Positions 6,764 through 18,887 of a DNA stretch of 64,000 nt are shown in pieces. The DNA is from Clavelina lepadiformis. Lineage: Eukaryota > Chordata > Ascidiacea > Aplousobranchia > Clavelinidae. Position numbers and translations under genes: made by a program. How positions within the stretch are numbered: the first letter of the stretch is position 1; each line of letters opens with the position of its first letter. The notes under the pieces were generated by a model. It saw nothing but the letters and a program-made list of their open reading frames with translations. It made no database searches and had not been told where the DNA came from. The stretch covers positions 22,266,479 through 22,330,478 of the forward strand of contig NC_135243.1 of NCBI RefSeq assembly GCF_947623445.1, given 5' to 3'.

Positions 6764-6769
6764 GACTAT
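6764..6769. repeat. Left target-site duplication (GACTAT)
   Basis: GACTAT immediately precedes the element's first bases AGTAGTATAG. The same hexamer immediately follows the element's last bases CTATACTACT at 18881. Six base pairs is the usual Polinton/Maverick target duplication, and AG...CT are the usual termini, so these fix both ends of the insertion. Confidence 0.9.
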
Positions 6770-6800
6770 AGTAGTATAGTGTTGCCACCCCAGGAGTCTT

Positions 6801-6863
6801 ACCACCACGCCACCACCACACCACCACCACGCCACCACCACCGCCACCACCACGCCACCACCA
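6801..6863 (+). repeat. CACCAC-type minisatellite in TIR tip (left)
   Basis: Tandem imperfect trinucleotide-like repeats (accaccacg / ccaccaccac / gccaccacc variants) start about 30 bp inside the element end. The strand is strongly C-rich. The mirror copy is at 18788-18850. Confidence 0.8.
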
Positions 6864-7311
6864 TGCCAGCAACTGTGAAGTAGGTCACTCCAAGATTAGG
6901 TCATTCAAGTAATTAGGTCATATGTAAAAAGAGATAAGAAAAGTGACGTCATAATTTTGGTTCCACACGTAAAGAAAAAAGATGTTAGAAAAGTACAAGT
7001 GTAAAAGTGACGTTATAGTTTTCGTTTCATAGCGCCAACATGTGGTAAACATGTTCTAGGTTTCTAGAGAAAAGGGTGTAACAAAAGAGAAAAAACATCT
7101 TGGGTTTGTGGATATTCGATATCAGTTACATCATAGTTTCAGCGTAAAGTATACAGAACGATGAACCGTATGAATTACCACCTGGAATCATATGGAGAAA
7201 AGCCTAGAGTAAGAACGCGTTAATCGTATTTGCATATGCTAACATGACCTGGTTATGAATTCCAGCTTGGGTTGAAATAAGCCAGACTTTAGAAACAAAG
7301 CATTGGAATGT

Positions 7312-7560
7312 ATTACAACCAATCCAGTCGATTCCAGATGTAAGAGAAGAATAAATAATAGCTGGTACCCAGATGTGATTTGTTTTGACCCGATTATGAA
7401 GGCAAGTCCAAACCTGTCTGGTGGAAACAAGTGTGTTGGACAGGTCGAAAGGGTGGTATATTGCACAATCCAACCAATCCACTCACAGCCAGTTGTGAGA
7501 AAGAATAACTAAAAGCTGGCTTTCAGATGTGATTTGTTTGTTTTGTTTTCGTGAAGGAAG
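7312..7560 (+). repeat. Imperfect ~90-bp direct repeat in left TIR
   Basis: Segments near 7312-7402 and 7464-7560 share ordered blocks: 'aaccaatcca', 'gagaagaata/gagaaagaata', 'agctgg', 'cagatgtgatttgtttt' and 'gaagg'. They lie just upstream of the 171-aa gene's TATA box, so they could be promoter or replication-control elements; that role is inference. The mirror is at 18091-18339. Confidence 0.65.
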
Positions 7561-7561
7561 G

Positions 7562-7568
7562 TATATAA
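7562..7568 (+). promoter_or_regulatory. TATA box of 171-aa gene (left)
   Basis: TATATAA lies 56 bp before the first ATG of the gene. Mirror copy at 18083-18089. Confidence 0.6.
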
Positions 7569-7623
7569 TACTCTGCGTTTGAGAATTGAAATCATTACAT
7601 CAACAAATACAAAACGAAGTGAT

Positions 7624-8139
7624 ATGTCGTGTGAACCGAGAAGCAAAAGAAGAAAGCTCGATTTCGATGCTGTTACCATTCAAAAGGTGTTTGAAGAAAG
7701 GGTAGTGATGAAAACTGATTATCAACCACGGACACACGTGTATCAAGCGTATCTCTCGGTGAAAACGAAATATGGCAGTTACTATGACATGTCACGCCTT
7801 GAAGACGTGATTCGTTTGATATTCAAGGATCGACCATGTATCATGCTACTCACAAAGCCACGATCGGACTTCGTTTCGGTGGGTGTGATGTATTTCTCCG
7901 ATCCCAATCCAGTGATGTGTGAATATTTTGAGAGAGTGGAAGAACTTCGCAAACAAGTCAAACCAGACGGGGTGACAATCCGATTTTCTCGAAAGCCCGT
8001 GTTTAATGCAGAATCCTACCTGAAGTTTGTCTTGAAAAGAGTACCAGGCACTAAAATCATTAACAAACACTGTAAACTATCGAATGAAGACGACCAAAAG
8101 GAGTTCGATAAAATCATTTCGAATGTCTTGTTGCAATAA
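7624..8139 (+). CDS. Orphan Polinton accessory protein, 171 aa (left copy)
   Basis: I do not recognise this protein. The open frame extends upstream to a TTG at 7579, but the first ATG is at 7624, downstream of a TATA box, so I use that start. The N-terminus has a nuclear-localisation-like SKRRK. The body is mixed alpha/beta with a lysine/arginine-rich composition and no signal peptide or membrane segment. The stop codon overlaps an AATAAA polyadenylation signal. It sits alone at the element end, in its own promoter-terminator unit and in the same direction as the adjacent BIR-RING gene, as accessory host-interaction genes of DNA viruses often do. An identical copy lies in the right arm. Function unknown; DNA binding or host modulation would be guesses. 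Confidence 0.75.
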   Translation: MSCEPRSKRRKLDFDAVTIQKVFEERVVMKTDYQPRTHVYQAYLSVKTKYGSYYDMSRLEDVIRLIFKDRPCIMLLTKPRSDFVSVGVMYFSDPNPVMCEYFERVEELRKQVKPDGVTIRFSRKPVFNAESYLKFVLKRVPGTKIINKHCKLSNEDDQKEFDKIISNVLLQ

Positions 8140-8175
8140 AAAAATGGAATACGTGTAAATAAAACAAGTTACGGT

Positions 8176-8225
8176 TAAATTCTGTTGTGTTTGTGTATAG
8201 TAAATTCTGTTGTGTTTGTGTATAG
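8176..8225 (+). repeat. Two tandem 25-bp repeats (left)
   Basis: The unit 'taaattctgttg...tgtatag' occurs twice with no mismatch at 8176-8200 and 8201-8225, between the 171-aa gene and the TATA box of the BIR-RING gene. Mirror at 17426-17475. Confidence 0.9.
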
Positions 8226-8277
8226 GTACTGGTGAGAGAGAACGCATTAGAAAAAATAAAAAATGACAAAACGATGC

Positions 8278-8283
8278 TATAAA
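8278..8283 (+). promoter_or_regulatory. TATA box of BIR-RING gene (left)
   Basis: TATAAA overlaps the upstream ATG at 8283, which makes that ATG unlikely to be transcribed. It supports the start at 8331, about 50 bp downstream. Mirror at 17368-17373. Confidence 0.65.
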
Positions 8284-8330
8284 TGCGAGTGATATGTGAG
8301 TTGATTTCAGTGAGAACATTCAGTTTTAAT

Positions 8331-8972
8331 ATGGATGTTGGAGAAAGGAAACGATTGGTAAAGTTTCCATGTTATTTTCCACATCAACCTTGCATGAGAT
8401 CGATTGAAAGACGAACTCTAACCTTTCTAAATAATGCCAAAAGCTGGGTCATGTTCGAGATGAACATAAGCTTTTATGAACTTGCGGAAGCAGGATGGTG
8501 TTACACCGGAGACAAAGATCGTGTAAAGTGCTGGTACTGTAGCGGGATTTTACAGCAATGGCACGTGAATGATGACCCGTGGGAAGAGCATGCAAAATGG
8601 TTCCCTTTATGCGAGTATATTCTACAACGAAAAGGAGGAGACTATGTATTCGGTGTTGTTTCGAGATTTCCGAATTTGAGAAGACCTAACATTTCCAATC
8701 CGGCGAATGGGGAGGAGATAGAACGAATTCGAAGAATGTTACCTCGATCAACACCTGCTGGTGAAATACTGATGAGGAGTCTACGAGAAGACGATGAACT
8801 ACAAATCGTCCGTGAAAGAGAGAAATGTGTTGTATGTTTTACCCATACAACAAACGCGTTAATTATACCCTGTGGTCATTTATGTATGTGTTTGGAATGT
8901 GTTGTGAAAGTACAGACCTGTCCAATGTGTAGAACTGAAATTTACCAAACGCTAAAAGTGTATAGAGCGTAA
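8331..8972 (+). CDS. IAP-like BIR-RING protein (left copy)
   Basis: A 213-aa inhibitor-of-apoptosis-type protein. Residues ~24-97 form one BIR domain: the zinc ligands Cys67, Cys70, His87 and Cys94 are all present, with the typical LAEAGWCYTG and DDPWEEHAKWFP blocks. Residues ~166-200 form a C3HC4 RING (Cys166, Cys169, Cys181, His183, Cys187, Cys190, Cys197, Cys200), the E3 ubiquitin-ligase module of IAPs. Known role of the family: binding and ubiquitylating caspases or other death regulators. Such genes are repeatedly captured by animal DNA viruses. Here it is intronless, sits in the arm outside the capsid genes and has its own TATA box. The stop overlaps an AATAAA signal and it is convergent with the capsid gene. 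Its role in the element is inferred as protection of the replicating cell from apoptosis. Confidence 0.93.
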   Translation: MDVGERKRLVKFPCYFPHQPCMRSIERRTLTFLNNAKSWVMFEMNISFYELAEAGWCYTGDKDRVKCWYCSGILQQWHVNDDPWEEHAKWFPLCEYILQRKGGDYVFGVVSRFPNLRRPNISNPANGEEIERIRRMLPRSTPAGEILMRSLREDDELQIVREREKCVVCFTHTTNALIIPCGHLCMCLECVVKVQTCPMCRTEIYQTLKVYRA

Positions 8973-8976
8973 TAAA
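8971..8976 (+). terminator. Poly(A) signal of BIR-RING gene (left)
   Basis: AATAAA overlapping the stop codon. It faces the poly(A) signal of the convergent capsid transcript about 40 bp away. Mirror at 16675-16680. Confidence 0.75.
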
Positions 8977-9012
8977 ACATAACCATGAACCTTATTCATT
9001 CGGATGTTTTTT

Positions 9013-9018
9013 TTTATT
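9013..9018 (-). terminator. Poly(A) signal of capsid transcript (left)
   Basis: AATAAA on the minus strand, 37 bp after the capsid stop codon. It probably ends a polycistronic or nested late transcript. Mirror at 16633-16638. Confidence 0.75.
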
Positions 9019-9054
9019 GAATCGAAAAGTACACAGAAAACAAATGACATTCAA

Positions 9055-10359
9055 TCAGGGTGCATAATCAAAAATAACGTTGCGACTACGATCGATTTCC
9101 AGAATATTATCGAATTCTCCGTAAACGATTGTATTGATGGTGGCCGGTAGAGGTCGTGCAAAATGCATTTCCATGCGTAGATTTCCACGTTTCACGAGAT
9201 CGAAATGACCGCCATCACTGAGGTCGGGTGAGAGATCAAAAACAAACAAGGTGTATCCGTTAGGATAATCCGTTCTATTGATCGCGTTACCGGTATCTTT
9301 GAAATGCTGGTTCGATCCAGTGAAAAGACTGTTATAAGCTCGAATATACTGCTGCTGTTCAAACTTTGGTTGGAGAGGCTTGCAAGGGATCTGTTCTCCG
9401 TTCACGTATACCGCCAGAAAGGAGATGTTATAATTTTTAAAATCAAAGGGGTTTTCCTCTATGACACCGTTGAACGCGGTATTATTAACACAACCGATGA
9501 CAATCCGTTTAGGAAGTTGTCCTAGAAAAACATTTTCTTGATTGCAAGACATATTTCCACGTGGAACACTAAAAACTTTGGTTTGTATTCTTCGAATGGG
9601 ATATTTCGCGTTAGAGACTTGCAAAGCTTTGATATGTGCCAATGCCACCTGAGCAGAAGGAGTGACCTTGCGGACGTATAGAATGACCTGATTAATTTTT
9701 GTTTTGAATGTACTTCCTCGAGCAGCCATTAAATTAAACTCAGACTTGGTACGGGTAAGCTTCAACTTCATGTTTATTCCACTGAGTAAATAACGACTTT
9801 GAAAAAAGAGATCCAAGTGGAGTTTTCCGACCATCTCCACCTCGCCACTCATTGCAGTGAAAGCTTTTCTCTTTTCAAAACCGGTATTCGCTTGGGTCAA
9901 AGCACTCATATGCCCGGCAGTATCCTCATACCATAGAGCACCAGTCAATTGAGAAGTCTTGGCTTCATCCCCAAAGCTGAGTAAAGTTTCCAAATAGGCT
10001 CGATACGGATAGGTGTTGGTAGACGCCGAGACCAGTTTATCGTTCAGTGATAGATCGACCTGACCGAATAAAGCATTCAACCAATAATTAACCGGTGCCA
10101 CGACTGCATCGTCTCCGAGATCACTACCATCATTCTTTTGAATTTGAGCCTTCACAAAAATGACGCTATTGCTTAAGTCCAAGTAGGCATCGGTCGAGGA
10201 TTGAATCGCAAACTCAATCGGCCCCGAATCCGAGATGTTGTTTAAAGGTTGGTGTTCCACCCATACCCCGCTTTCGATACTGGACTGGGTCGGTGGAACG
10301 GAAAATAAGTCTAATTCGCTTTTCGTGCAAATACAGGAAAGAGGATGAATGAGTGACAT
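9055..10359 (-). CDS. Polinton major capsid protein (left copy)
   Basis: A 434-aa protein of the family often annotated as 'F54H12.2-like' in invertebrates, recognised as the Polinton major capsid protein (double jelly-roll type). The N-terminal region has the family's LDLFSVPPTQ and a GPIEFAI block. The middle carries the YPYRAYLETLLSFG segment, and the C-terminus has RGNLRMEMHFA followed by an ENIVYGEFDN-type motif. The ATG at 10359 overlaps the stop of the upstream 135-aa gene (TGATG), so translation is probably coupled or from a shared transcript. An identical protein is encoded at 15292-16596, so the element carries two intact capsid genes. No frameshift or stop is seen. Role: forms the icosahedral shell; whether virions are made is unknown. 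Confidence 0.9.
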   Translation of the reverse strand: MSLIHPLSCICTKSELDLFSVPPTQSSIESGVWVEHQPLNNISDSGPIEFAIQSSTDAYLDLSNSVIFVKAQIQKNDGSDLGDDAVVAPVNYWLNALFGQVDLSLNDKLVSASTNTYPYRAYLETLLSFGDEAKTSQLTGALWYEDTAGHMSALTQANTGFEKRKAFTAMSGEVEMVGKLHLDLFFQSRYLLSGINMKLKLTRTKSEFNLMAARGSTFKTKINQVILYVRKVTPSAQVALAHIKALQVSNAKYPIRRIQTKVFSVPRGNMSCNQENVFLGQLPKRIVIGCVNNTAFNGVIEENPFDFKNYNISFLAVYVNGEQIPCKPLQPKFEQQQYIRAYNSLFTGSNQHFKDTGNAINRTDYPNGYTLFVFDLSPDLSDGGHFDLVKRGNLRMEMHFARPLPATINTIVYGEFDNILEIDRSRNVIFDYAP

Positions 10360-10766
10360 CACTCAAAAATATCGTTTATGACCTTTCTTCGCTTTGTCCT
10401 CTTGGAACTGATCGTTTTCTTTCGTTTTTTTCTGTTTATATTCACTCTTTCACCGGGTGGGGTTAACATACGTTCGCTTGCCGTTTCCAGGAGATGCCTT
10501 CCAGCTTCCTTGGATCGCCGAAGAGCCGCCTGTTTCAGGTTTTGTCCTTGTAAGACGTCACTGAGAACTTGTGTGCCAGATTGGAGAGCCTGTTTCCCCA
10601 AGGCCTTTGCACCACTTTTAATGAGAGGCATAACCAATTTCGAGAGACCGGAAAAAACGCTTCCGATACCGTATCCTCTTTGGTATTCTCTACCGTGAAA
10701 AACAGGTAGACCTGAACCGGCTTGATTGACGTAATACCTCTGATAGAGATCTCCGTGGTTCACCAT
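10359..10766 (-). CDS. Small basic virion-type protein, 135 aa (left copy)
   Basis: A basic 135-aa protein between penton and capsid genes, a position and type conserved in Polintons and the related adintoviruses. It has a Gly/Tyr-rich N-terminal part, a central amphipathic helix region (about residues 40-95) and a strongly basic tail (KKRKK, KRTKRRK). This resembles the minor virion/membrane-active or core proteins of adenoviruses (pVI/pVII-like role), but that is by position and composition, not clear homology. It overlaps the penton gene by 7 bp at its start and the capsid gene by 1 bp at its end. The right-arm copy is identical in protein sequence. Confidence 0.8.
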   Translation of the reverse strand: MVNHGDLYQRYYVNQAGSGLPVFHGREYQRGYGIGSVFSGLSKLVMPLIKSGAKALGKQALQSGTQVLSDVLQGQNLKQAALRRSKEAGRHLLETASERMLTPPGERVNINRKKRKKTISSKRTKRRKVINDIFE

Positions 10767-11548
10767 TTTCTTTTACGACGTATGTGAAGTGTTATGACCA
10801 ATCGTCCACCTTCAAATAAGATAGGATTCCCCTGGCTATCCCTTATATCTATTTCTACCGTATCAAACGTTTTGATAGCGAGGAGGTGATAAAATAATTT
10901 TTCGTGGGTAAGACAAATAACTTCTCCCGGTTTCTTGGTGACGGGTACGACTCGTAAAAGTGAAGTAAACGAATCTCCCACGACAGAGGGCTCAACTAAG
11001 TCACAGTACACGTAGAGTGCAGGTACATTATAAAAACTATGGATTGGTTTCCCTATCTCTCCTTCGGGAAGTAACATATCTTCTGTTCCGAGAAATTCAT
11101 AAAGTGAATTGTTCACAGCTATTCTTAAATCTTTCATTTTTTCGAAGGAAAATTTCTTCGTGGCTTCATCGAATTGCACGACAAGGGGTTTTACATTCTC
11201 CCCCAGAGGGGTGAGGGAATCATCGTCACGTTCACTGATACGTTTGCTATAATCCTCTTTAAACTTTTTCGTTAATGTTCGAAACGTGTCAATGATCATC
11301 TTCGCCTTGTAGTAATTTCCAGCGGGAAACTTATATTCGAACAGTTCGTGGTTGTACAGGTAAACCACCACCGATGGTAAGGCTAGATTATTCCAGCTGT
11401 GTGGATACTGTATCTCACCCAATCCGATTTCATAATCTCCTCCACTATCCAGTTCAATGCGATGTGGCAGTCTCGTTTTGTAATTGGTTAAAGTATTTCC
11501 GGGAAAGATATCCATGGAAGAATTGGATGGTAGCGTCAAATAAAACAT
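10760..11548 (-). CDS. Penton-like minor capsid protein, 262 aa
   Basis: Intact single-jelly-roll-type minor capsid (penton) protein of Polintons. The N-terminus has the family's FYLTLPSNSS, then 'NTLTNYKTRLP' and 'WEVGLGEIQYPHSW'-like segments (here EIGLGEIQYPHSWN). The C-terminus is basic. The gene spans the left arm/core border at 11378, which shows that left arm plus core is the original arrangement. Its start overlaps the end of the 74-aa membrane-protein gene. The copy at the right join lacks the first ~57 residues. Role: vertex protein of the capsid by family assignment. Confidence 0.87.
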   Translation of the reverse strand: MFYLTLPSNSSMDIFPGNTLTNYKTRLPHRIELDSGGDYEIGLGEIQYPHSWNNLALPSVVVYLYNHELFEYKFPAGNYYKAKMIIDTFRTLTKKFKEDYSKRISERDDDSLTPLGENVKPLVVQFDEATKKFSFEKMKDLRIAVNNSLYEFLGTEDMLLPEGEIGKPIHSFYNVPALYVYCDLVEPSVVGDSFTSLLRVVPVTKKPGEVICLTHEKLFYHLLAIKTFDTVEIDIRDSQGNPILFEGGRLVITLHIRRKRKW

Positions 11549-11772
11549 TATTTCGGGAGGGAAGGATTCGGTAAGATGTAACCGATACTACTCGATAAGA
11601 GTGAAATCCAAAGATCTTTCTGTTCACTTCCAACAGTGAGGTTGTACAATGATATGGCAGCGACCACAAACACGAGTAGAATTTGACATATAAATACTAT
11701 ACTATGTTTACGTTCGTTTGTCGTCGAATCGGTTAACCGAACCGAGTCGTCAGACGTTCCGTCACCCGTCAT
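11548..11772 (-). CDS. Small Polinton membrane protein, 74 aa
   Basis: A 74-aa protein with a polar N-terminus, a hydrophobic segment at about residues 24-45 and a conserved-looking C-terminal block, SSSIGYILPNP. I recognise this tail as typical of a small ORF next to protease/penton genes in many Mavericks; its function is not established. It lies in the single-copy core between protease and penton and is nearly contiguous with both, suggesting a shared transcript. Confidence 0.72.
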   Translation of the reverse strand: MTGDGTSDDSVRLTDSTTNERKHSIVFICQILLVFVVAAISLYNLTVGSEQKDLWISLLSSSIGYILPNPSLPK

Positions 11773-11814
11773 AGTTGGAATGAAATAAATACGAGACTTT
11801 TACTTCCAAACCAT

Positions 11815-12363
11815 TTATAGAGGGAGAATACGGAACGATACATCGATGTTATAGTTGTCCTCGATAAAGTCATGTACCAGTGTATCGTTCAAGAACAGGT
11901 CCTCCGAGTACATACCCAAGATCTGACGAAGGGAATAATCTCTCACTATCATGAGACTGAATAAAAGTACATGTTGACCGCATACATTCGTGAACGTCTG
12001 CACGGTTCGAGAGTTGAAAGTACACGCGATTGAATTCATTCTTAAAAAGATGTAAAACTCACGGTGAATCGGACGACATCCGAAAGAATCGAAATAGGTA
12101 GCCTTGTTCTCGCGATCAATGTATATTCCGACCCAGTGCGATCCGGGGTTTCTGGAACTATCGCTATTTACCACGTACAAGCTTGGGTTGTCATAGTTCA
12201 ACAGTAGCAATTCGTCGCGCGGAAAACACCCTCGAAACACTTTCTTGGTTTCAATATCTCGACTCAATACGTTCGATATCTGTAGAGTATCCATAGTAAT
12301 AGACGATCTTTGTTTCGAATACAGAGTTTTTATTACGAGTAAGACACAAACAAAAAAATGCAT
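11815..12363 (-). CDS. Adenain-like cysteine protease
   Basis: A 182-aa C5/Ulp1-fold virion protease. Catalytic residues visible are His76 (in GSHWVGIY), Asp92 (YFDSFG), Gln122 and Cys128 (NVCGQH), in the order His-Asp-Gln-Cys expected for adenain and Polinton proteases. A second Met at residue 24 (12294) begins the part that aligns with the family. The first 23 residues form a hydrophobic leader that may be untranslated, so the start is uncertain. It lies 10 bp from the integrase stop. Role: maturation cleavage of capsid precursors, by family knowledge. It is present once, in the core. Confidence 0.92.
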   Translation of the reverse strand: MHFFVCVLLVIKTLYSKQRSSITMDTLQISNVLSRDIETKKVFRGCFPRDELLLLNYDNPSLYVVNSDSSRNPGSHWVGIYIDRENKATYFDSFGCRPIHREFYIFLRMNSIACTFNSRTVQTFTNVCGQHVLLFSLMIVRDYSLRQILGMYSEDLFLNDTLVHDFIEDNYNIDVSFRILPL

Positions 12364-12372
12364 TCGATAGAA

Positions 12373-13419
12373 TCAGGGTCGGTACGCTTTCATATCAGAT
12401 TCATTCACCCAACTGTTGAAGTTTGATGGCCAACCGAGCCATTTGACGAGATATTGTTTCCTTTTTCCACGCTTTCTTGTTTCGAGGATGGCTTCGATCA
12501 AAAATTCATCGTCCTTTTTTACAATTTTTTGTAATTCTTGTTCGTAAAAGCTTCCGTGTAATTCTTCGGAATGATAATCTTTTAGCTTGTAAGTAGGTGG
12601 ATTTCCCGGGATCCGTTTGACGATGGTGAATATCTCTTCGGTCCAATTCGGAAGATAGCCCTTTTCGAATACTTGTTTGTTCTTACTGATTCTAACCACG
12701 TCACCGGGTTGAAACTTTGGTTTTCTTTCTCGCATCGGTTTTCCATACAAGTTTTGCCATATCTCATCTTGATTTTTCCAAGTTACCGAGACCGGGGTAG
12801 TTTTGATAGAACGGTGATAAGAACGGTTGTATGCGTCCAGCATGGGTTGTAAAACGTCGACGTACTTTAGAGTATTCTTGGCCGTAAAATACCGCCACAT
12901 CTTTGTCTTTAAGGTTCTGTTAAATCGTTCCACAATGGCCGCTTTTACCTCATTAAAACTGGTAAAGAATAGAATTTGATTCTCTTTGAGAAACGTTTGA
13001 AAACGTCTGTTTGTAAATTCAGAACCCTTGTCAGTTTGCAATTGTAATGGTTTCCTTTCTCGTACAATTTCCCCGAAAGCTTTCACCAAACTTTTCCCGG
13101 TCTTATCTTTCAGAGGGATCGCCCAGGCGTACTTTGAAAAGACATCGATACACGTCAGCAGGTATCTGTAATCACGATTATAACGTTTTAATTTGGATAA
13201 ATCCACCAAATCGGCTTGAAACTGCTGGTCGATTCCGCTCACAATCACCTTTCTCCTGGTAAAATATCGTCTCGCGGGTTTATGGAGTGTATAGGGGTCT
13301 TGTTGGGATAGAAATTGTTTGACGCTTTTCTGTGTTTGTCCAGATTGAATTTGTAACTGCCTGACACCACCGAAACTACCGGCTTTGGATGGGGAATAAT
13401 AGATTTCACGCAGAGTCAT
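12373..13419 (-). CDS. Polinton integrase (rve, chromodomain)
   Basis: A 348-aa retroviral-type DDE integrase. The catalytic triad is Asp70 (QADLVDL), Asp130 (QTDKGSEF) and Glu164 (VERFNRTLK), with 33 residues between the second Asp and Glu. Residues ~302-348 form a chromodomain with the YLVKWLGWP core, a common feature of Polinton and Ty3-like integrases that may steer insertion to marked chromatin. The ATG at 13419 overlaps the end of the upstream 84-codon frame. No disabling change is visible, consistent with the clean 6-bp target duplication. It occurs once, in the core. Confidence 0.95.
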   Translation of the reverse strand: MTLREIYYSPSKAGSFGGVRQLQIQSGQTQKSVKQFLSQQDPYTLHKPARRYFTRRKVIVSGIDQQFQADLVDLSKLKRYNRDYRYLLTCIDVFSKYAWAIPLKDKTGKSLVKAFGEIVRERKPLQLQTDKGSEFTNRRFQTFLKENQILFFTSFNEVKAAIVERFNRTLKTKMWRYFTAKNTLKYVDVLQPMLDAYNRSYHRSIKTTPVSVTWKNQDEIWQNLYGKPMRERKPKFQPGDVVRISKNKQVFEKGYLPNWTEEIFTIVKRIPGNPPTYKLKDYHSEELHGSFYEQELQKIVKKDDEFLIEAILETRKRGKRKQYLVKWLGWPSNFNSWVNESDMKAYRP

Positions 13420-14007
13420 AACTTAACCAAGGACGAGGTTCGGTGACGGAATTTTCGATTCTTGGTTTGATGAAATTCCACCTATCCTTGTTTCCAACCA
13501 AGCTTTCGGGTACATTCAATAGTTTTAAAGCCGAGGCGAATTCTCGCCAACCGGTAGGTGAAAAATTCTTCTTCTTTCTGAGGAGATCGTCTACCAAATC
13601 GAATATATGACTGTGAGGTATGGCCTTGTCTTGAATTATTAATTCACCTTCTGATTCCAAGCAATAGAATTACTTCTTTTAAGGAATTTTAATAACTGTT
13701 CAGCCTTTTTTCGTTTATTGAGTGGTACACCGTTTGTGATTTGTTGTTCGAGATTCAATTCCTTCACTCGCGGTTCTTGGATTCGCAGTGTAATGGGTTC
13801 GGTTAATTTTTCTTGAAAGGTTATATAACGTTGTAAGATTTGCTGGTAACGTTTCACTTTCTCGTTGGTGTCCATATTTTGTTGTAAAACATTTTCCATT
13901 TCTTGGTCTAATTTAGACATGGCTTTAGCAGTGGAGTTGGTCGGTCGATTGGTGTCCGGTAGTTGGCGCGGATCCATCAATATCATCTTTTTGGCGTAAT
14001 TCATCAT
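13406..14007 (-). pseudogene. Frameshifted conserved Polinton gene (two frames)
   Basis: Two overlapping frames lie in the order seen within one Polinton protein of unknown function. The upstream frame (14007 down to 13639) starts with a typical AKKMILMDPR block and is rich in coiled-coil-like sequence. The downstream frame (13660 down to 13406) carries the usual IPHSHIFDLVDDLL and FSPTGWREF segments. The downstream frame has no ATG near its beginning (only TTG at 13660). The frames overlap by ~20 bp around 13640-13660, where a single-base shift would be needed to pass from one to the other. I therefore read this as one gene broken by a 1-nt indel; programmed frameshifting or a sequencing error are alternatives. 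It sits just upstream of integrase. Confidence 0.65.
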
Positions 14008-14270
14008 TTGTGAAACAAACTCGTAAGGGCGGGTAAAACAGCTCCGATGAGTGGTCCGATCAAAGCAGATAGAAATCCACCCCTCTGAATAATAATCTTC
14101 TTTTTATAGAGAGGCGTTTTCTTCTTGACAATTTCACGAAGTGGTTTTCTATATTTTTTTAATCGAAGTTTTTGCCCGGTGTTTAAAGGCACATTCCCCG
14201 CCAACACGTTTCGTGCACATTCACAAATGGCTTTTACCAGATCCGAACTACCCCGATGTAAAAGTTGTCT
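14004..14270 (-). pseudogene. pX-like basic virion gene, 5'-truncated at palindrome join
   Basis: The frame is open from an in-frame stop exactly at the right palindrome join (14271-14273) to 14004, with no ATG in the first half. The protein has the Polinton hallmark CECARNVLAGNVPLN, then a lysine/arginine-rich stretch and a C-terminal RGGF plus hydrophobic glycine/alanine-rich segment. This layout is typical of the small core or membrane-active (pX-like) protein of Polintons and adintoviruses. The missing N-terminus shows that the inverted copy of the left arm replaced the original DNA beyond this point. The end overlaps the ATG of the next frame. Confidence 0.75.
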
Positions 14271-14272
14271 TC

Positions 14273-14891
14273 ACCATCGGTGGTGGTTTACCTGTACAAC
14301 CACGAACTGTTCGAATATAAGTTTCCCGCTGGAAATTACTACAAGGCGAAGATGATCATTGACACGTTTCGAACATTAACGAAAAAGTTTAAAGAGGATT
14401 ATAGCAAACGTGTCAGTGAACGTGACGATGATTCCCTCACCCCTCTGGGGGAGAATGTAAAACCCCTTGTCGTGCAATTCGATGAAGCCACGAAGAAATT
14501 TTCCTTCGAAAAAATGAAAGATTTAAGAATAGCTGTGAACAATTCACTTTATGAATTTCTCGGAACAGAAGATATGTTACTTCCCGAAGGAGAGATAGGG
14601 AAACCAATCCATAGTTTTTATAATGTACCTGCACTCTACGTGTACTGTGACTTAGTTGAGCCCTCTGTCGTGGGAGATTCGTTTACTTCACTTTTACGAG
14701 TCGTACCCGTCACCAAGAAACCGGGAGAAGTTATTTGTCGTACCTACGAAAAATTATTTTATCACCCCCTCGCTATCAAAACGTTTGATACGGTAAAAAT
14801 AGATATAAGGGATAGCCAGGGGAATCCTATCTTATTTGAAGGTGGACGATTGGTCATAACACTTCACATACGTCGTAAAAGAAAATGGTGA
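14273..14891 (+). pseudogene. Penton gene, 5'-truncated copy at right join
   Basis: Encodes roughly the last 205 residues of the penton protein. The first ~57 codons and the ATG are missing. The open frame extends back only to a TTG at 14265 made of core sequence. Five substitutions relative to the intact copy fall here, at least four changing the protein (for example Ile to Val, Leu to Arg, His to Tyr, Leu to Pro, Glu to Lys). This is consistent with relaxed selection on a dead copy. Confidence 0.88.
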
Positions 14892-15292
14892 ACCACGGAG
14901 ATCTCTATCAGAGGTATTACGTCAATCAAGCCGGTTCAGGTCTACCTGTTTTTCACGGTAGAGAATACCAAAGAGGATACGGTATCGGAAGCGTTTTTTC
15001 CGGTCTCTCGAAATTGGTTATGCCTCTCATTAAAAGTGGTGCAAAGGCCTTGGGGAAACAGGCTCTCCAATCTGGCACACAAGTTCTCAGTGACGTCTTA
15101 CAAGGACAAAACCTGAAACAGGCGGCTCTTCGGCGATCCAAGGAAGCTGGAAGGCATCTCCTGGAAACGGCAAGCGAACGTATGTTAACCCCACCCGGTG
15201 AAAGAGTGAATATAAACAGAAAAAAACGAAAGAAAACGATCAGTTCCAAGAGGACAAAGCGAAGAAAGGTCATAAACGATATTTTTGAGTGA
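14885..15292 (+). CDS. Small basic virion-type protein, 135 aa (right copy)
   Basis: Protein identical to that at 10359-10766: basic, with a central helix and a KKRKK/KRTKRRK tail. It starts inside the end of the truncated penton frame and ends in a TGATG overlap with the capsid start. Because the upstream genes are cut at the join, its expression from this arm would need a promoter other than that of the core operon-like cluster. Confidence 0.78.
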   Translation: MVNHGDLYQRYYVNQAGSGLPVFHGREYQRGYGIGSVFSGLSKLVMPLIKSGAKALGKQALQSGTQVLSDVLQGQNLKQAALRRSKEAGRHLLETASERMLTPPGERVNINRKKRKKTISSKRTKRRKVINDIFE

Positions 15293-16596
15293 TGTCACTC
15301 ATTCATCCTCTTTCCTGTATTTGCACGAAAAGCGAATTAGACTTATTTTCCGTTCCACCGACCCAGTCCAGTATCGAAAGCGGGGTATGGGTGGAACACC
15401 AACCTTTAAACAACATCTCGGATTCGGGGCCGATTGAGTTTGCGATTCAATCCTCGACCGATGCCTACTTGGACTTAAGCAATAGCGTCATTTTTGTGAA
15501 GGCTCAAATTCAAAAGAATGATGGTAGTGATCTCGGAGACGATGCAGTCGTGGCACCGGTTAATTATTGGTTGAATGCTTTATTCGGTCAGGTCGATCTA
15601 TCACTGAACGATAAACTGGTCTCGGCGTCTACCAACACCTATCCGTATCGAGCCTATTTGGAAACTTTACTCAGCTTTGGGGATGAAGCCAAGACTTCTC
15701 AATTGACTGGTGCTCTATGGTATGAGGATACTGCCGGGCATATGAGTGCTTTGACCCAAGCGAATACCGGTTTTGAAAAGAGAAAAGCTTTCACTGCAAT
15801 GAGTGGCGAGGTGGAGATGGTCGGAAAACTCCACTTGGATCTCTTTTTTCAAAGTCGTTATTTACTCAGTGGAATAAACATGAAGTTGAAGCTTACCCGT
15901 ACCAAGTCTGAGTTTAATTTAATGGCTGCTCGAGGAAGTACATTCAAAACAAAAATTAATCAGGTCATTCTATACGTCCGCAAGGTCACTCCTTCTGCTC
16001 AGGTGGCATTGGCACATATCAAAGCTTTGCAAGTCTCTAACGCGAAATATCCCATTCGAAGAATACAAACCAAAGTTTTTAGTGTTCCACGTGGAAATAT
16101 GTCTTGCAATCAAGAAAATGTTTTTCTAGGACAACTTCCTAAACGGATTGTCATCGGTTGTGTTAATAATACCGCGTTCAACGGTGTCATAGAGGAAAAC
16201 CCCTTTGATTTTAAAAATTATAACATCTCCTTTCTGGCGGTATACGTGAACGGAGAACAGATCCCTTGCAAGCCTCTCCAACCAAAGTTTGAACAGCAGC
16301 AGTATATTCGAGCTTATAACAGTCTTTTCACTGGATCGAACCAGCATTTCAAAGATACCGGTAACGCGATCAATAGAACGGATTATCCTAACGGATACAC
16401 CTTGTTTGTTTTTGATCTCTCACCCGACCTCAGTGATGGCGGTCATTTCGATCTCGTGAAACGTGGAAATCTACGCATGGAAATGCATTTTGCACGACCT
16501 CTACCGGCCACCATCAATACAATCGTTTACGGAGAATTCGATAATATTCTGGAAATCGATCGTAGTCGCAACGTTATTTTTGATTATGCACCCTGA
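15292..16596 (+). CDS. Polinton major capsid protein (right copy)
   Basis: 434 aa, identical in protein sequence to the copy at 9055-10359, with the same TGATG overlap at its start and its own AATAAA downstream. Complete identity of the two copies means either a very recent arm duplication or ongoing arm-to-arm homogenisation. See the left copy for domain evidence. Confidence 0.9.
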   Translation: MSLIHPLSCICTKSELDLFSVPPTQSSIESGVWVEHQPLNNISDSGPIEFAIQSSTDAYLDLSNSVIFVKAQIQKNDGSDLGDDAVVAPVNYWLNALFGQVDLSLNDKLVSASTNTYPYRAYLETLLSFGDEAKTSQLTGALWYEDTAGHMSALTQANTGFEKRKAFTAMSGEVEMVGKLHLDLFFQSRYLLSGINMKLKLTRTKSEFNLMAARGSTFKTKINQVILYVRKVTPSAQVALAHIKALQVSNAKYPIRRIQTKVFSVPRGNMSCNQENVFLGQLPKRIVIGCVNNTAFNGVIEENPFDFKNYNISFLAVYVNGEQIPCKPLQPKFEQQQYIRAYNSLFTGSNQHFKDTGNAINRTDYPNGYTLFVFDLSPDLSDGGHFDLVKRGNLRMEMHFARPLPATINTIVYGEFDNILEIDRSRNVIFDYAP

Positions 16597-16678
16597 TTGA
16601 ATGTCATTTGTTTTCTGTGTACTTTTCGATTCAATAAAAAAAAACATCCGAATGAATAAGGTTCATGGTTATGTTTTA

Positions 16679-17320
16679 TTACGCTCTATACACTTTTAGC
16701 GTTTGGTAAATTTCAGTTCTACACATTGGACAGGTCTGTACTTTCACAACACATTCCAAACACATACATAAATGACCACAGGGTATAATTAACGCGTTTG
16801 TTGTATGGGTAAAACATACAACACATTTCTCTCTTTCACGGACGATTTGTAGTTCATCGTCTTCTCGTAGACTCCTCATCAGTATTTCACCAGCAGGTGT
16901 TGATCGAGGTAACATTCTTCGAATTCGTTCTATCTCCTCCCCATTCGCCGGATTGGAAATGTTAGGTCTTCTCAAATTCGGAAATCTCGAAACAACACCG
17001 AATACATAGTCTCCTCCTTTTCGTTGTAGAATATACTCGCATAAAGGGAACCATTTTGCATGCTCTTCCCACGGGTCATCATTCACGTGCCATTGCTGTA
17101 AAATCCCGCTACAGTACCAGCACTTTACACGATCTTTGTCTCCGGTGTAACACCATCCTGCTTCCGCAAGTTCATAAAAGCTTATGTTCATCTCGAACAT
17201 GACCCAGCTTTTGGCATTATTTAGAAAGGTTAGAGTTCGTCTTTCAATCGATCTCATGCAAGGTTGATGTGGAAAATAACATGGAAACTTTACCAATCGT
17301 TTCCTTTCTCCAACATCCAT
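16679..17320 (-). CDS. IAP-like BIR-RING protein (right copy)
   Basis: 213 aa, identical to the left copy, with full BIR and RING zinc ligands. The start at 17320 is chosen because the upstream in-frame ATG (17368) overlaps the TATA box at 17368-17373. Convergent with the right capsid gene. Duplication of this gene doubles the dosage of the putative anti-death function. Confidence 0.92.
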   Translation of the reverse strand: MDVGERKRLVKFPCYFPHQPCMRSIERRTLTFLNNAKSWVMFEMNISFYELAEAGWCYTGDKDRVKCWYCSGILQQWHVNDDPWEEHAKWFPLCEYILQRKGGDYVFGVVSRFPNLRRPNISNPANGEEIERIRRMLPRSTPAGEILMRSLREDDELQIVREREKCVVCFTHTTNALIIPCGHLCMCLECVVKVQTCPMCRTEIYQTLKVYRA

Positions 17321-17511
17321 ATTAAAACTGAATGTTCTCACTGAAATCAACTCACATATCACTCGCATTTATAGCATCGTTTTGTCATTTTTTATTTTTT
17401 CTAATGCGTTCTCTCTCACCAGTACCTATACACAAACACAACAGAATTTACTATACACAAACACAACAGAATTTAACCGTAACTTGTTTTATTTACACGT
17501 ATTCCATTTTT

Positions 17512-18027
17512 TTATTGCAACAAGACATTCGAAATGATTTTATCGAACTCCTTTTGGTCGTCTTCATTCGATAGTTTACAGTGTTTGTTAATGATTTTAG
17601 TGCCTGGTACTCTTTTCAAGACAAACTTCAGGTAGGATTCTGCATTAAACACGGGCTTTCGAGAAAATCGGATTGTCACCCCGTCTGGTTTGACTTGTTT
17701 GCGAAGTTCTTCCACTCTCTCAAAATATTCACACATCACTGGATTGGGATCGGAGAAATACATCACACCCACCGAAACGAAGTCCGATCGTGGCTTTGTG
17801 AGTAGCATGATACATGGTCGATCCTTGAATATCAAACGAATCACGTCTTCAAGGCGTGACATGTCATAGTAACTGCCATATTTCGTTTTCACCGAGAGAT
17901 ACGCTTGATACACGTGTGTCCGTGGTTGATAATCAGTTTTCATCACTACCCTTTCTTCAAACACCTTTTGAATGGTAACAGCATCGAAATCGAGCTTTCT
18001 TCTTTTGCTTCTCGGTTCACACGACAT
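17512..18027 (-). CDS. Orphan Polinton accessory protein, 171 aa (right copy)
   Basis: Identical in protein sequence to the left copy at 7624-8139, with the same TATA box (18083-18089) and the AATAAA overlapping the stop. No recognised domain; SKRRK near the N-terminus. Confidence 0.75.
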   Translation of the reverse strand: MSCEPRSKRRKLDFDAVTIQKVFEERVVMKTDYQPRTHVYQAYLSVKTKYGSYYDMSRLEDVIRLIFKDRPCIMLLTKPRSDFVSVGVMYFSDPNPVMCEYFERVEELRKQVKPDGVTIRFSRKPVFNAESYLKFVLKRVPGTKIINKHCKLSNEDDQKEFDKIISNVLLQ

Positions 18028-18090
18028 ATCACTTCGTTTTGTATTTGTTGATGTAATGATTTCAATTCTCAAACGCAGAGTATTATATAC

Positions 18091-18339
18091 CTTCCTTCAC
18101 GAAAACAAAACAAACAAATCACATCTGGATGCCAGCTTTTAGTTATTCTTTCTCACAACTGGCTGTGAGTGGATTGGTTGGATTGTGCAATATACCACCC
18201 TTTCGACCTGTCCAACACACTTGTTTCCACCAGACAGGTTTGGACTTGCCTTCATAATCGGGTCAAAACAAATCACATCTGGGTACCAGCTATTATTTAT
18301 TCTTCTCTTACATCTGGAATCGACTGGATTGGTTGTAAT
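18091..18339 (-). repeat. Imperfect ~90-bp direct repeat in right TIR
   Basis: Mirror of 7312-7560. Two substitutions between the arms lie here, at about 18122-18129. Confidence 0.6.
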
Positions 18340-18787
18340 ACATTCCAATGCTTTGTTTCTAAAGTCTGGCTTATTTCAACCCAAGCTGGAATTCATAACC
18401 AGGTCATGTTAGCATATGCAAATACGATTAACGCGTTCTTACTCTAGGCTTTTCTCCATATGATTCCAGGTGGTAATTCATACGGTTCATCGTTCTGTAT
18501 ACTTTACGCTGAAACTATGATGTAACTGATATCGAATATCCACAAACCCAAGATGTTTTTTCTCTTTTGTTACACCCTTTTCTCTAGAAACCTAGAACAT
18601 GTTTACCACATGTTGGCGCTATGAAACGAAAACTATAACGTCACTTTTACACTTGTACTTTTCTAACATCTTTTTTCTTTACGTGTGGAACCAAAATTAT
18701 GACGTCACTTTTCTTATCTCTTTTTACATATGACCTAATTACTTGAATGACCTAATCTTGGAGTGACCTACTTCACAGTTGCTGGCA

Positions 18788-18850
18788 TGGTGGTGGCGTG
18801 GTGGTGGCGGTGGTGGTGGCGTGGTGGTGGTGTGGTGGTGGCGTGGTGGT
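18788..18850 (-). repeat. GGTGGT-type minisatellite in TIR tip (right)
   Basis: Mirror of the CACCAC array at the left tip, ending about 30 bp from the element end. Confidence 0.8.
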
Positions 18851-18881
18851 AAGACTCCTGGGGTGGCAACACTATACTACT

Positions 18882-18887
18882 GACTAT
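18882..18887. repeat. Right target-site duplication (GACTAT)
   Basis: Follows the terminal ...ACTACT of the element and matches 6764-6769 perfectly. Confidence 0.9.

Follow-up and report, generated by a model that had tools for sequence, protein, structure and literature searches.

A Polinton-type element of Clavelina lepadiformis with an inverted left end in place of its right part, and its palindromic sisters

We analysed a 64,000-nt stretch of the genome of the ascidian Clavelina lepadiformis (contig NC_135243.1, positions 22,266,479 to 22,330,478; hereafter the window) and the element that occupies its positions 6770 to 18881. We consider it probable that this window element is a Polinton-type provirus in which an inverted copy of the leftmost 4,609 bp has taken the place of the right part, most likely through a copy-back template switch during replication of linear DNA, and that seven sister palindromes in the same genome arose in the same way. 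As far as sequence can tell, the structure is real and belongs to a population of Polinton palindromes. Their turns (the points where the core passes into the inverted arm) are inherited and recur, and one of them bears a scar.

Results

Structure of the window element and its straight relatives

A sequence-only reading had described equal inverted arms of 4,609 bp with about seven mismatches, a core of 2,894 bp, and termini and a target duplication in place, and all of these were confirmed. The element begins with AGTAGTATAG... on the left and ends with ...CTATACTACT on the right; these ends are mutually complementary and form intact inverted AGTAGTAT termini, flanked on both sides by a perfect 6-bp GACTAT. 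The arms differ at 7 of 4,609 positions (99.85% identity), and five of the seven mismatches lie within 385 nt (10855-11239 and 14412-14796), a clustering found in 0.0031 of 20,000 random placements, with private alleles in each arm. A chance repeat was rejected on the strength of a 4.6-kb inverted match at 99.85%, and two Polintons inserted head to head were rejected because the whole lies between a single pair of termini and a single target duplication. A CCACCACCACG-type minisatellite lies immediately inside both termini (6790-6880 and 18770-18860).

Relatives sharing the left arm and core, of the kind that the sequence-only reading had proposed to look for, were found at three places in the genome: C1:7.10 Mb, C5:10.30 Mb and C6:0.61 Mb. 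They match the window core at about 98% identity, the only other genome match to the core being 80 nt long, and all three also contain left-arm sequence. At the position of the window turn (14272/14273), C1, C5 and C6 all read ...GTTGTCTTC followed by GTACTCTCGG, where the window reads ...GTTGTCTTC followed by ACCATCGG. Because relatives sharing the left arm and core continue straight at the turn, the window copy is a derivative that has lost its right part and has the inverted left end there instead, in agreement with the earlier proposal that the left end had been copied onto the right side. The window turn is known from a single copy, and reading of the junction revealed no clear microhomology and no scar. 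At position 10911 both arms of the window element are unlike all three straight relatives.

The terminal inverted repeats (TIRs) of the straight relatives measure 654 aligned nt in C1, 340 in C6 and about 0.80-0.86 kb, as two overlapping blocks, in C5. Ordinary long TIRs of the family were therefore rejected as an explanation, and the possibility that all full-length relatives carry the same long arms, which would have undone the earlier proposal, did not hold (about 0.34-0.86 kb in the straight elements).

The right side was annotated in the C5 relative. Past the core, a packaging ATPase comes first (Pox_A32 E 1.5e-08, Adeno_IVa2 E 2.3e-05), followed by a polymerase split over two open reading frames (ORFs), neither piece of which reaches a polymerase family in Pfam. 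PF03175 occurs on 6 of the 120 homologues listed for the 466-aa polymerase piece, and a search of the PDB with a polymerase piece gave no match. Between its right TIR and the core, the C5 right region has no blastn match to the window element. By the ORF list and by blastn against C5, both the protein-primed DNA polymerase B and the packaging ATPase are missing from the window copy, which nevertheless has the rve integrase, TIRs and 6-bp target duplication of a Polinton. Since the polymerase is missing here and present in C5, we file the window copy as a defective Polinton derivative. At the left flank of C5 ends a 528-aa ORF (L022:169-1755) that looks retrotransposon-polyprotein-like by eye, with CCHC and reverse-transcriptase-like stretches.

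The ORFs also agree with the earlier account of the joins: the left one lies inside an intact penton-like gene, and the right one cuts two ORFs, the second penton-like copy (208 versus 262 aa) and the 136-aa ORF of the C5 type.

Palindromic elements elsewhere in the genome

The outer 1,030 nt of the window element have at least 73 matches in the genome. Ten further elements were fetched, namely the three straight relatives and seven giant palindromes; the seven sister palindromes, fetched as pieces, were compared base by base (Table 1). Palindromic derivatives with other join points, which the sequence-only reading had suggested seeking, are thus present, and what it had treated as a single oddity is a real palindrome that is one of many in this genome. 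Of the 11 elements, counting window, straight and palindromic copies together, 10 lie between perfect 6-bp target duplications, no two of which are alike. Match coordinates alone indicate symmetry at five further places (C2:21.23 Mb, C8:5.81 Mb, C5:0.41 Mb, C6:15.11 Mb and C6:15.13 Mb).

When up to 2 mismatches are allowed, the 20-nt terminus occurs at 77 sites in the genome, and its reversed control at none. Each inward-facing right end was paired by eye with the nearest preceding left end, which gave 15 pairs lying 8-20 kb apart. Nine of these are palindromes with arms of at least 4.5 kb (seven by sequence, two by coordinates); the rest comprise three straight relatives, two mirror copies of a partly palindromic C1 element, and one C6 composite. 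Two element copies on C1 (C1:1794445-1803523 and C1:2055900-2064978) each measure 9,079 bp between termini, lie in opposite orientation 0.25 Mb apart and have equal match scores; they are either a large inverted chromosome duplication or an assembly duplicate. The termini at C1:2397672-2397691 (-) and C1:4042607-4042626 (+) seem to form a second such inverted pair.

The window element doubles the left end, and the arms of C9a, C2 and C6b contain sequence from the right, polymerase-bearing end of C5; C9a includes a 140-aa piece resembling the start of the polymerase ORF. Left- or right-end origin was assigned for these four elements.

Inherited, repeated and scarred turns

The turn is identical on both sides in C9a and C2, and C7 and C3 have one common turn, single substitutions apart. 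In both pairs the target duplications differ, so that the members occupy separate insertion sites. Common turns at different target duplications indicate that palindromes were inherited and themselves moved, and each turn-sharing pair descends from one palindrome. The C9a core spans 4,941 nt (L026/L027, C9:4986389-4991329) against 982 nt in C2 despite the common turn; since the first 658 nt agree, about 4 kb was probably inserted in the C9a core.

C6b and C6c have C9a-like arm sequence with turn points elsewhere. Read from its right, C6c consists of C2-type core, then 14 nt of the second arm, then a turn at core position 392. The core length fits this path (604 = 982 - 392 + 14), at about 99% identity to the C2-type core, so that C6c records another turn, one that arose within a palindrome already in existence. 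By reading, its turn has 0-1 nt of microhomology. C6b has a more elaborate junction. After ...TTTCAAAC come 12 nt that match the opening 12 of the turn target (AACGCATATTGC), of which 3 are shared; the sequence then returns, 62 nt are copied twice, 4 nt are added, and the turn is made at the same target. When the 26-nt junction stretch was shuffled 10,000 times, a 12-nt match never arose. This abortive copy of the target is the kind of scar expected of serial template switching.

Arms of one element are alike

Comparison of the two arms of each sister palindrome gave 0, 1, 1, 6, 8, 8 and 14 substitutions (0-0.29%), those of C6b, C6c, C7 and C9b being compared over the part that lay in separate sequence pieces. 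Aligned left arms of different elements, in contrast, are 0.87-13% apart in all 21 of 21 pairs. Even where the turn is common, C9a and C2 differ by 1.9% (85 of 4,449) and C7 and C3 by 1.4% (66 of 4,764), and in these pairs blocks private to one element occur in both of its arms. Sameness within elements, divergence between them and the shared blocks together indicate that one arm of an element is the template for copying or correcting the other; the two arms of an element evidently evolve together, and arm identity is not a simple clock.

Gene content

The genes of the window element are listed in Table 1. The 435-aa ORF, tentatively labelled Polinton major-capsid-like, has 1,755 homologues, and PF21738 occurs on one of the best 120 of these 1,755; the PF21738 double jelly roll profile matched 1 of 13 scanned aligned members of the family, and not the window protein. 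In one pattern scan of viral contigs with the capsid-like protein, 4 stretches matched, none encoding a relative. The 262-aa ORF, presumably penton-like, has 131 homologues, the best 120 of which bear no family name. The capsid and penton labels draw on the size of these homologue families and on the single double jelly roll match. For the 182-aa protease-like ORF, the closest solved structure is S273R, a weak match (E 0.29). The gene spanning 13406-14007 is broken in the window copy, with ORFs of 84 and 122 aa against the 200 aa of C5. Besides the IAP-like gene of the window, a RING-only 133-aa ORF occurs in an arm of C9a (L026:6062-6463); both are possibly host-derived apoptosis genes.

Table 1. 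Features of the window element (window positions) and its seven sister palindromes (genome positions)
Feature	Position	Strand	Remarks
Target duplication GACTAT, left copy	6764..6769		6 bp
Left arm	6770..11378	+	4,609 nt; terminus AGTAGTAT at 6770
186-aa ORF	7579..8139	+	no Pfam match; inverted copy 17512-18072
IAP-like gene	8283..8972	+	BIR and RING domains; inverted copy 16679-17368
435-aa ORF, Polinton major-capsid-like	9055..10362	-	inverted copy 15289-16596; label partly presumed
135-aa ORF	10359..10766	-	no Pfam match; inverted copy 14885-15292
262-aa ORF, penton-like	10760..11548	-	open across the join of left arm and core; label presumed
Single-copy core	11379..14272	+	2,894 nt; C1, C5 and C6 relatives ~98% identical, continuing straight past its right end
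182-aa ORF, weakly adenovirus-protease-like	11815..12363	-	PF00770 E 0.069, under curated cut-off
Integrase, rve core and chromodomain	12373..13419	-	PF00665 E 1.1e-13, Chromo E 3.7e-10
Two overlapping ORFs, 84 and 122 aa	13406..14007	-	single 200-aa ORF in C5 relative
Inner part of the 136-aa ORF of C5	14004..14272	-	cut at turn; whole in C5 (L023:66-476)
Truncated right penton-like copy	14265..14891	+	208 aa versus 262 aa
Turn point	14272..14273		core ...GTTGTCTTC, then inverted arm ACCATCGG...; three relatives read GTACTCTCGG
Right arm	14273..18881	-	inverted left-arm copy, 4,609 nt, 7 mismatches
Target duplication GACTAT, right copy	18882..18887		6 bp
C9a	C9:4.98 Mb		arms ~6.1 kb, core 4,941 nt
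C2	3.89 Mb		arms ~7.2-7.3 kb, core 982 nt
C7	16.68 Mb		arms ~5.9 kb, core 960 nt
C3	5.40 Mb		arms ~6.0 kb, core 1,030 nt
C6b	C6:15.33 Mb		arms ~5.5 kb, core 673 nt
C6c	C6:17.63 Mb		arms ~5.2 and 5.6 kb, core 604 nt
C9b	C9:11.81 Mb		arms ~5.6 kb, centre <=134 nt

Discussion

A copy-back origin of the palindromes is well supported by the junctions and relatives described above; that the copying took place on linear, protein-primed extrachromosomal DNA is likely but unproven. A growing strand would have copied the left end and core of an element and, with little if any microhomology, parted from its template where the core ends. It would have resumed 2.9 kb back, on itself or on a sister strand, and run outward to the left terminus. 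With usable termini on both sides, the product could then have been integrated by the integrase. Palindromes without a polymerase would be copied with the help of complete elements, and in every round, or close to it, one arm would be copied anew from the other or corrected by it. Once made, palindromes are likely to have spread as mobile elements themselves. Polintons encode a protein-primed polymerase (PMC6431247), which would make linear replication the natural setting for such a switch.

Several known systems resemble this one in part. The window element shares with Polintons/Mavericks the rve integrase, TIRs and 6-bp duplication, with candidate capsid-like genes, as well as a same-genome relative with polymerase and ATPase; it differs in that its arms span 4.6 kb and hold whole putative capsid genes, whereas Polinton TIRs are below 1 kb, and in that polymerase and ATPase are missing. 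Defective adenovirus genomes with a duplicated end offer the case of a protein-primed linear replicon in which one end has been copied to the other. The window element shows the feature that defines snap-back or copy-back genomes, an inverted copy of one end replacing the other end of a known parent, and the sister elements show various turn points and marks of template switching. In adeno-associated virus (AAV), snap-back genomes are self-complementary, derive from the left or the right part, and are symmetric or have an unpaired middle (PMC8235507); the capsid-side forms double capsid genes (PMC8235507), comparable to the doubled putative capsid gene here. AAV, however, is a parvovirus with rolling-hairpin replication whose snap-back forms are packaged in particles, whereas here we deal with a family of chromosomal insertions. 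In the 2022 mpox virus, expansion of the inverted terminal repeat likewise copied one end inverted over the other with loss of the genes there (PMC10230479), but poxvirus genomes are large, hairpin-ended and non-integrated, and the expansion is explained by recombination between genomes (PMC10230479). Galileo, a Foldback-like transposon, has long dynamic TIRs with coding DNA and changes common to both arms (PMC4168063). It is a cut-and-paste element of the P superfamily that makes 7-bp duplications and lacks both polymerase and capsid genes, in contrast to the rve integrase and 6-bp duplication found here; the window element has neither a P-type transposase nor a 7-bp duplication.

In the parts of the literature that our search returned, no description of adenovirus snap-back or duplicated-end genomes was found, and a search on poxvirus terminal transposition brought up nothing relevant; a Drosophila virilis paper had no bearing on the question. 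Palindromic or copy-back Polintons were not described in any title or opening of an abstract among the best-ranked open-licence papers listed.

A number of observations weigh against copy-back switching during linear replication. The evidence is a genome assembly, which does not show a free linear form, and Galileo, which is no protein-primed replicon, likewise extends its TIRs over coding DNA (PMC4168063). The window turn was seen in one copy and is scar-free. In C6b, the lone element whose right terminus and target duplication are unrecognisable, the turn, at least outside its 12-nt copy of the target, could otherwise have come from a deletion that took out the centre of an older palindrome asymmetrically. 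Arms are unequal in C2 (96 nt in gaps) and in C6c (a block of about 470 nt in one arm). In-place gene conversion could account for the likeness of arms, and the five of seven clustered mismatches in the window, together with private changes in both arms, hint at patchy correction.

The main alternative is an origin in the chromosome, in which break repair or template switching in integrated copies used the other end and in-place gene conversion keeps the arms alike. Galileo extends its TIRs, recruits coding DNA and has secondary insertions that join both TIRs, and gap repair, template switching and ectopic recombination are the processes proposed for its structural variation (PMC4168063); at yeast forks, template switching yields inverted linear fragments (PMC10766183). 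The clustered mismatches in the window would fit patchy conversion. Even so, we regard a chromosomal origin as unlikely. Polinton integrases are not known to excise, and for that reason the gap from which repair would start is not expected. The occurrence of several different turns in a single family, with some made inside older palindromes and some inherited, also suggests copying that recurs in the life cycle of the element, which weighs against repair in place.

Another route follows the model offered for mpox genomes in which one end was copied to the other and genes there were lost (PMC10230479): two oppositely oriented linear genomes recombine without homology, so that one product has left ends on both sides and the reciprocal product has right ends on both. 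Left-end (window) and right-end (C9a, C2, C6b) palindromes are indeed both present, but the product reciprocal to the window element is absent among the ten fetched elements, and the scar of C6b and the turn of C6c inside an older palindrome are more simply read as template switches. We therefore think this recombination quite improbable. Fold-back reads are a known sequencing artefact and, like a mis-join, could create an inverted arm; yet the right arm ends in a proper terminus with a matching 6-bp duplication and different flanking DNA, the two arms have 7 differences with private changes on each side, and exact turns are common to sister palindromes at unrelated loci. An assembly error is accordingly a very remote prospect.

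Beyond the copy-back switch itself, we tentatively propose a wider reading, about which we are more doubtful than confident. Polintons of this genome may have spawned heritable palindromic copy-back satellites that lack polymerase and ATPase. Such satellites would be replicated by complete Polintons as self-folding linear DNA, one arm re-templating the other at each round, with new turns arising inside old palindromes and insertion by Polinton integrase. The palindromes would then be a fossil record, kept in the chromosomes, of defective viral genomes.

Free, protein-primed linear replication of Polintons has so far been inferred from their genes, and according to a 2021 paper Polintons had not been observed outside cells (PMC7805220). 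Scarred turns, inherited turns and jointly evolving arms are physical traces of the copying of these elements, and such palindrome traces make the replication mode of Polintons testable from genome sequence. If the copy-back origin is true, the palindromes also show that defective genomes of this kind are able to spread and to be fixed in chromosomes.

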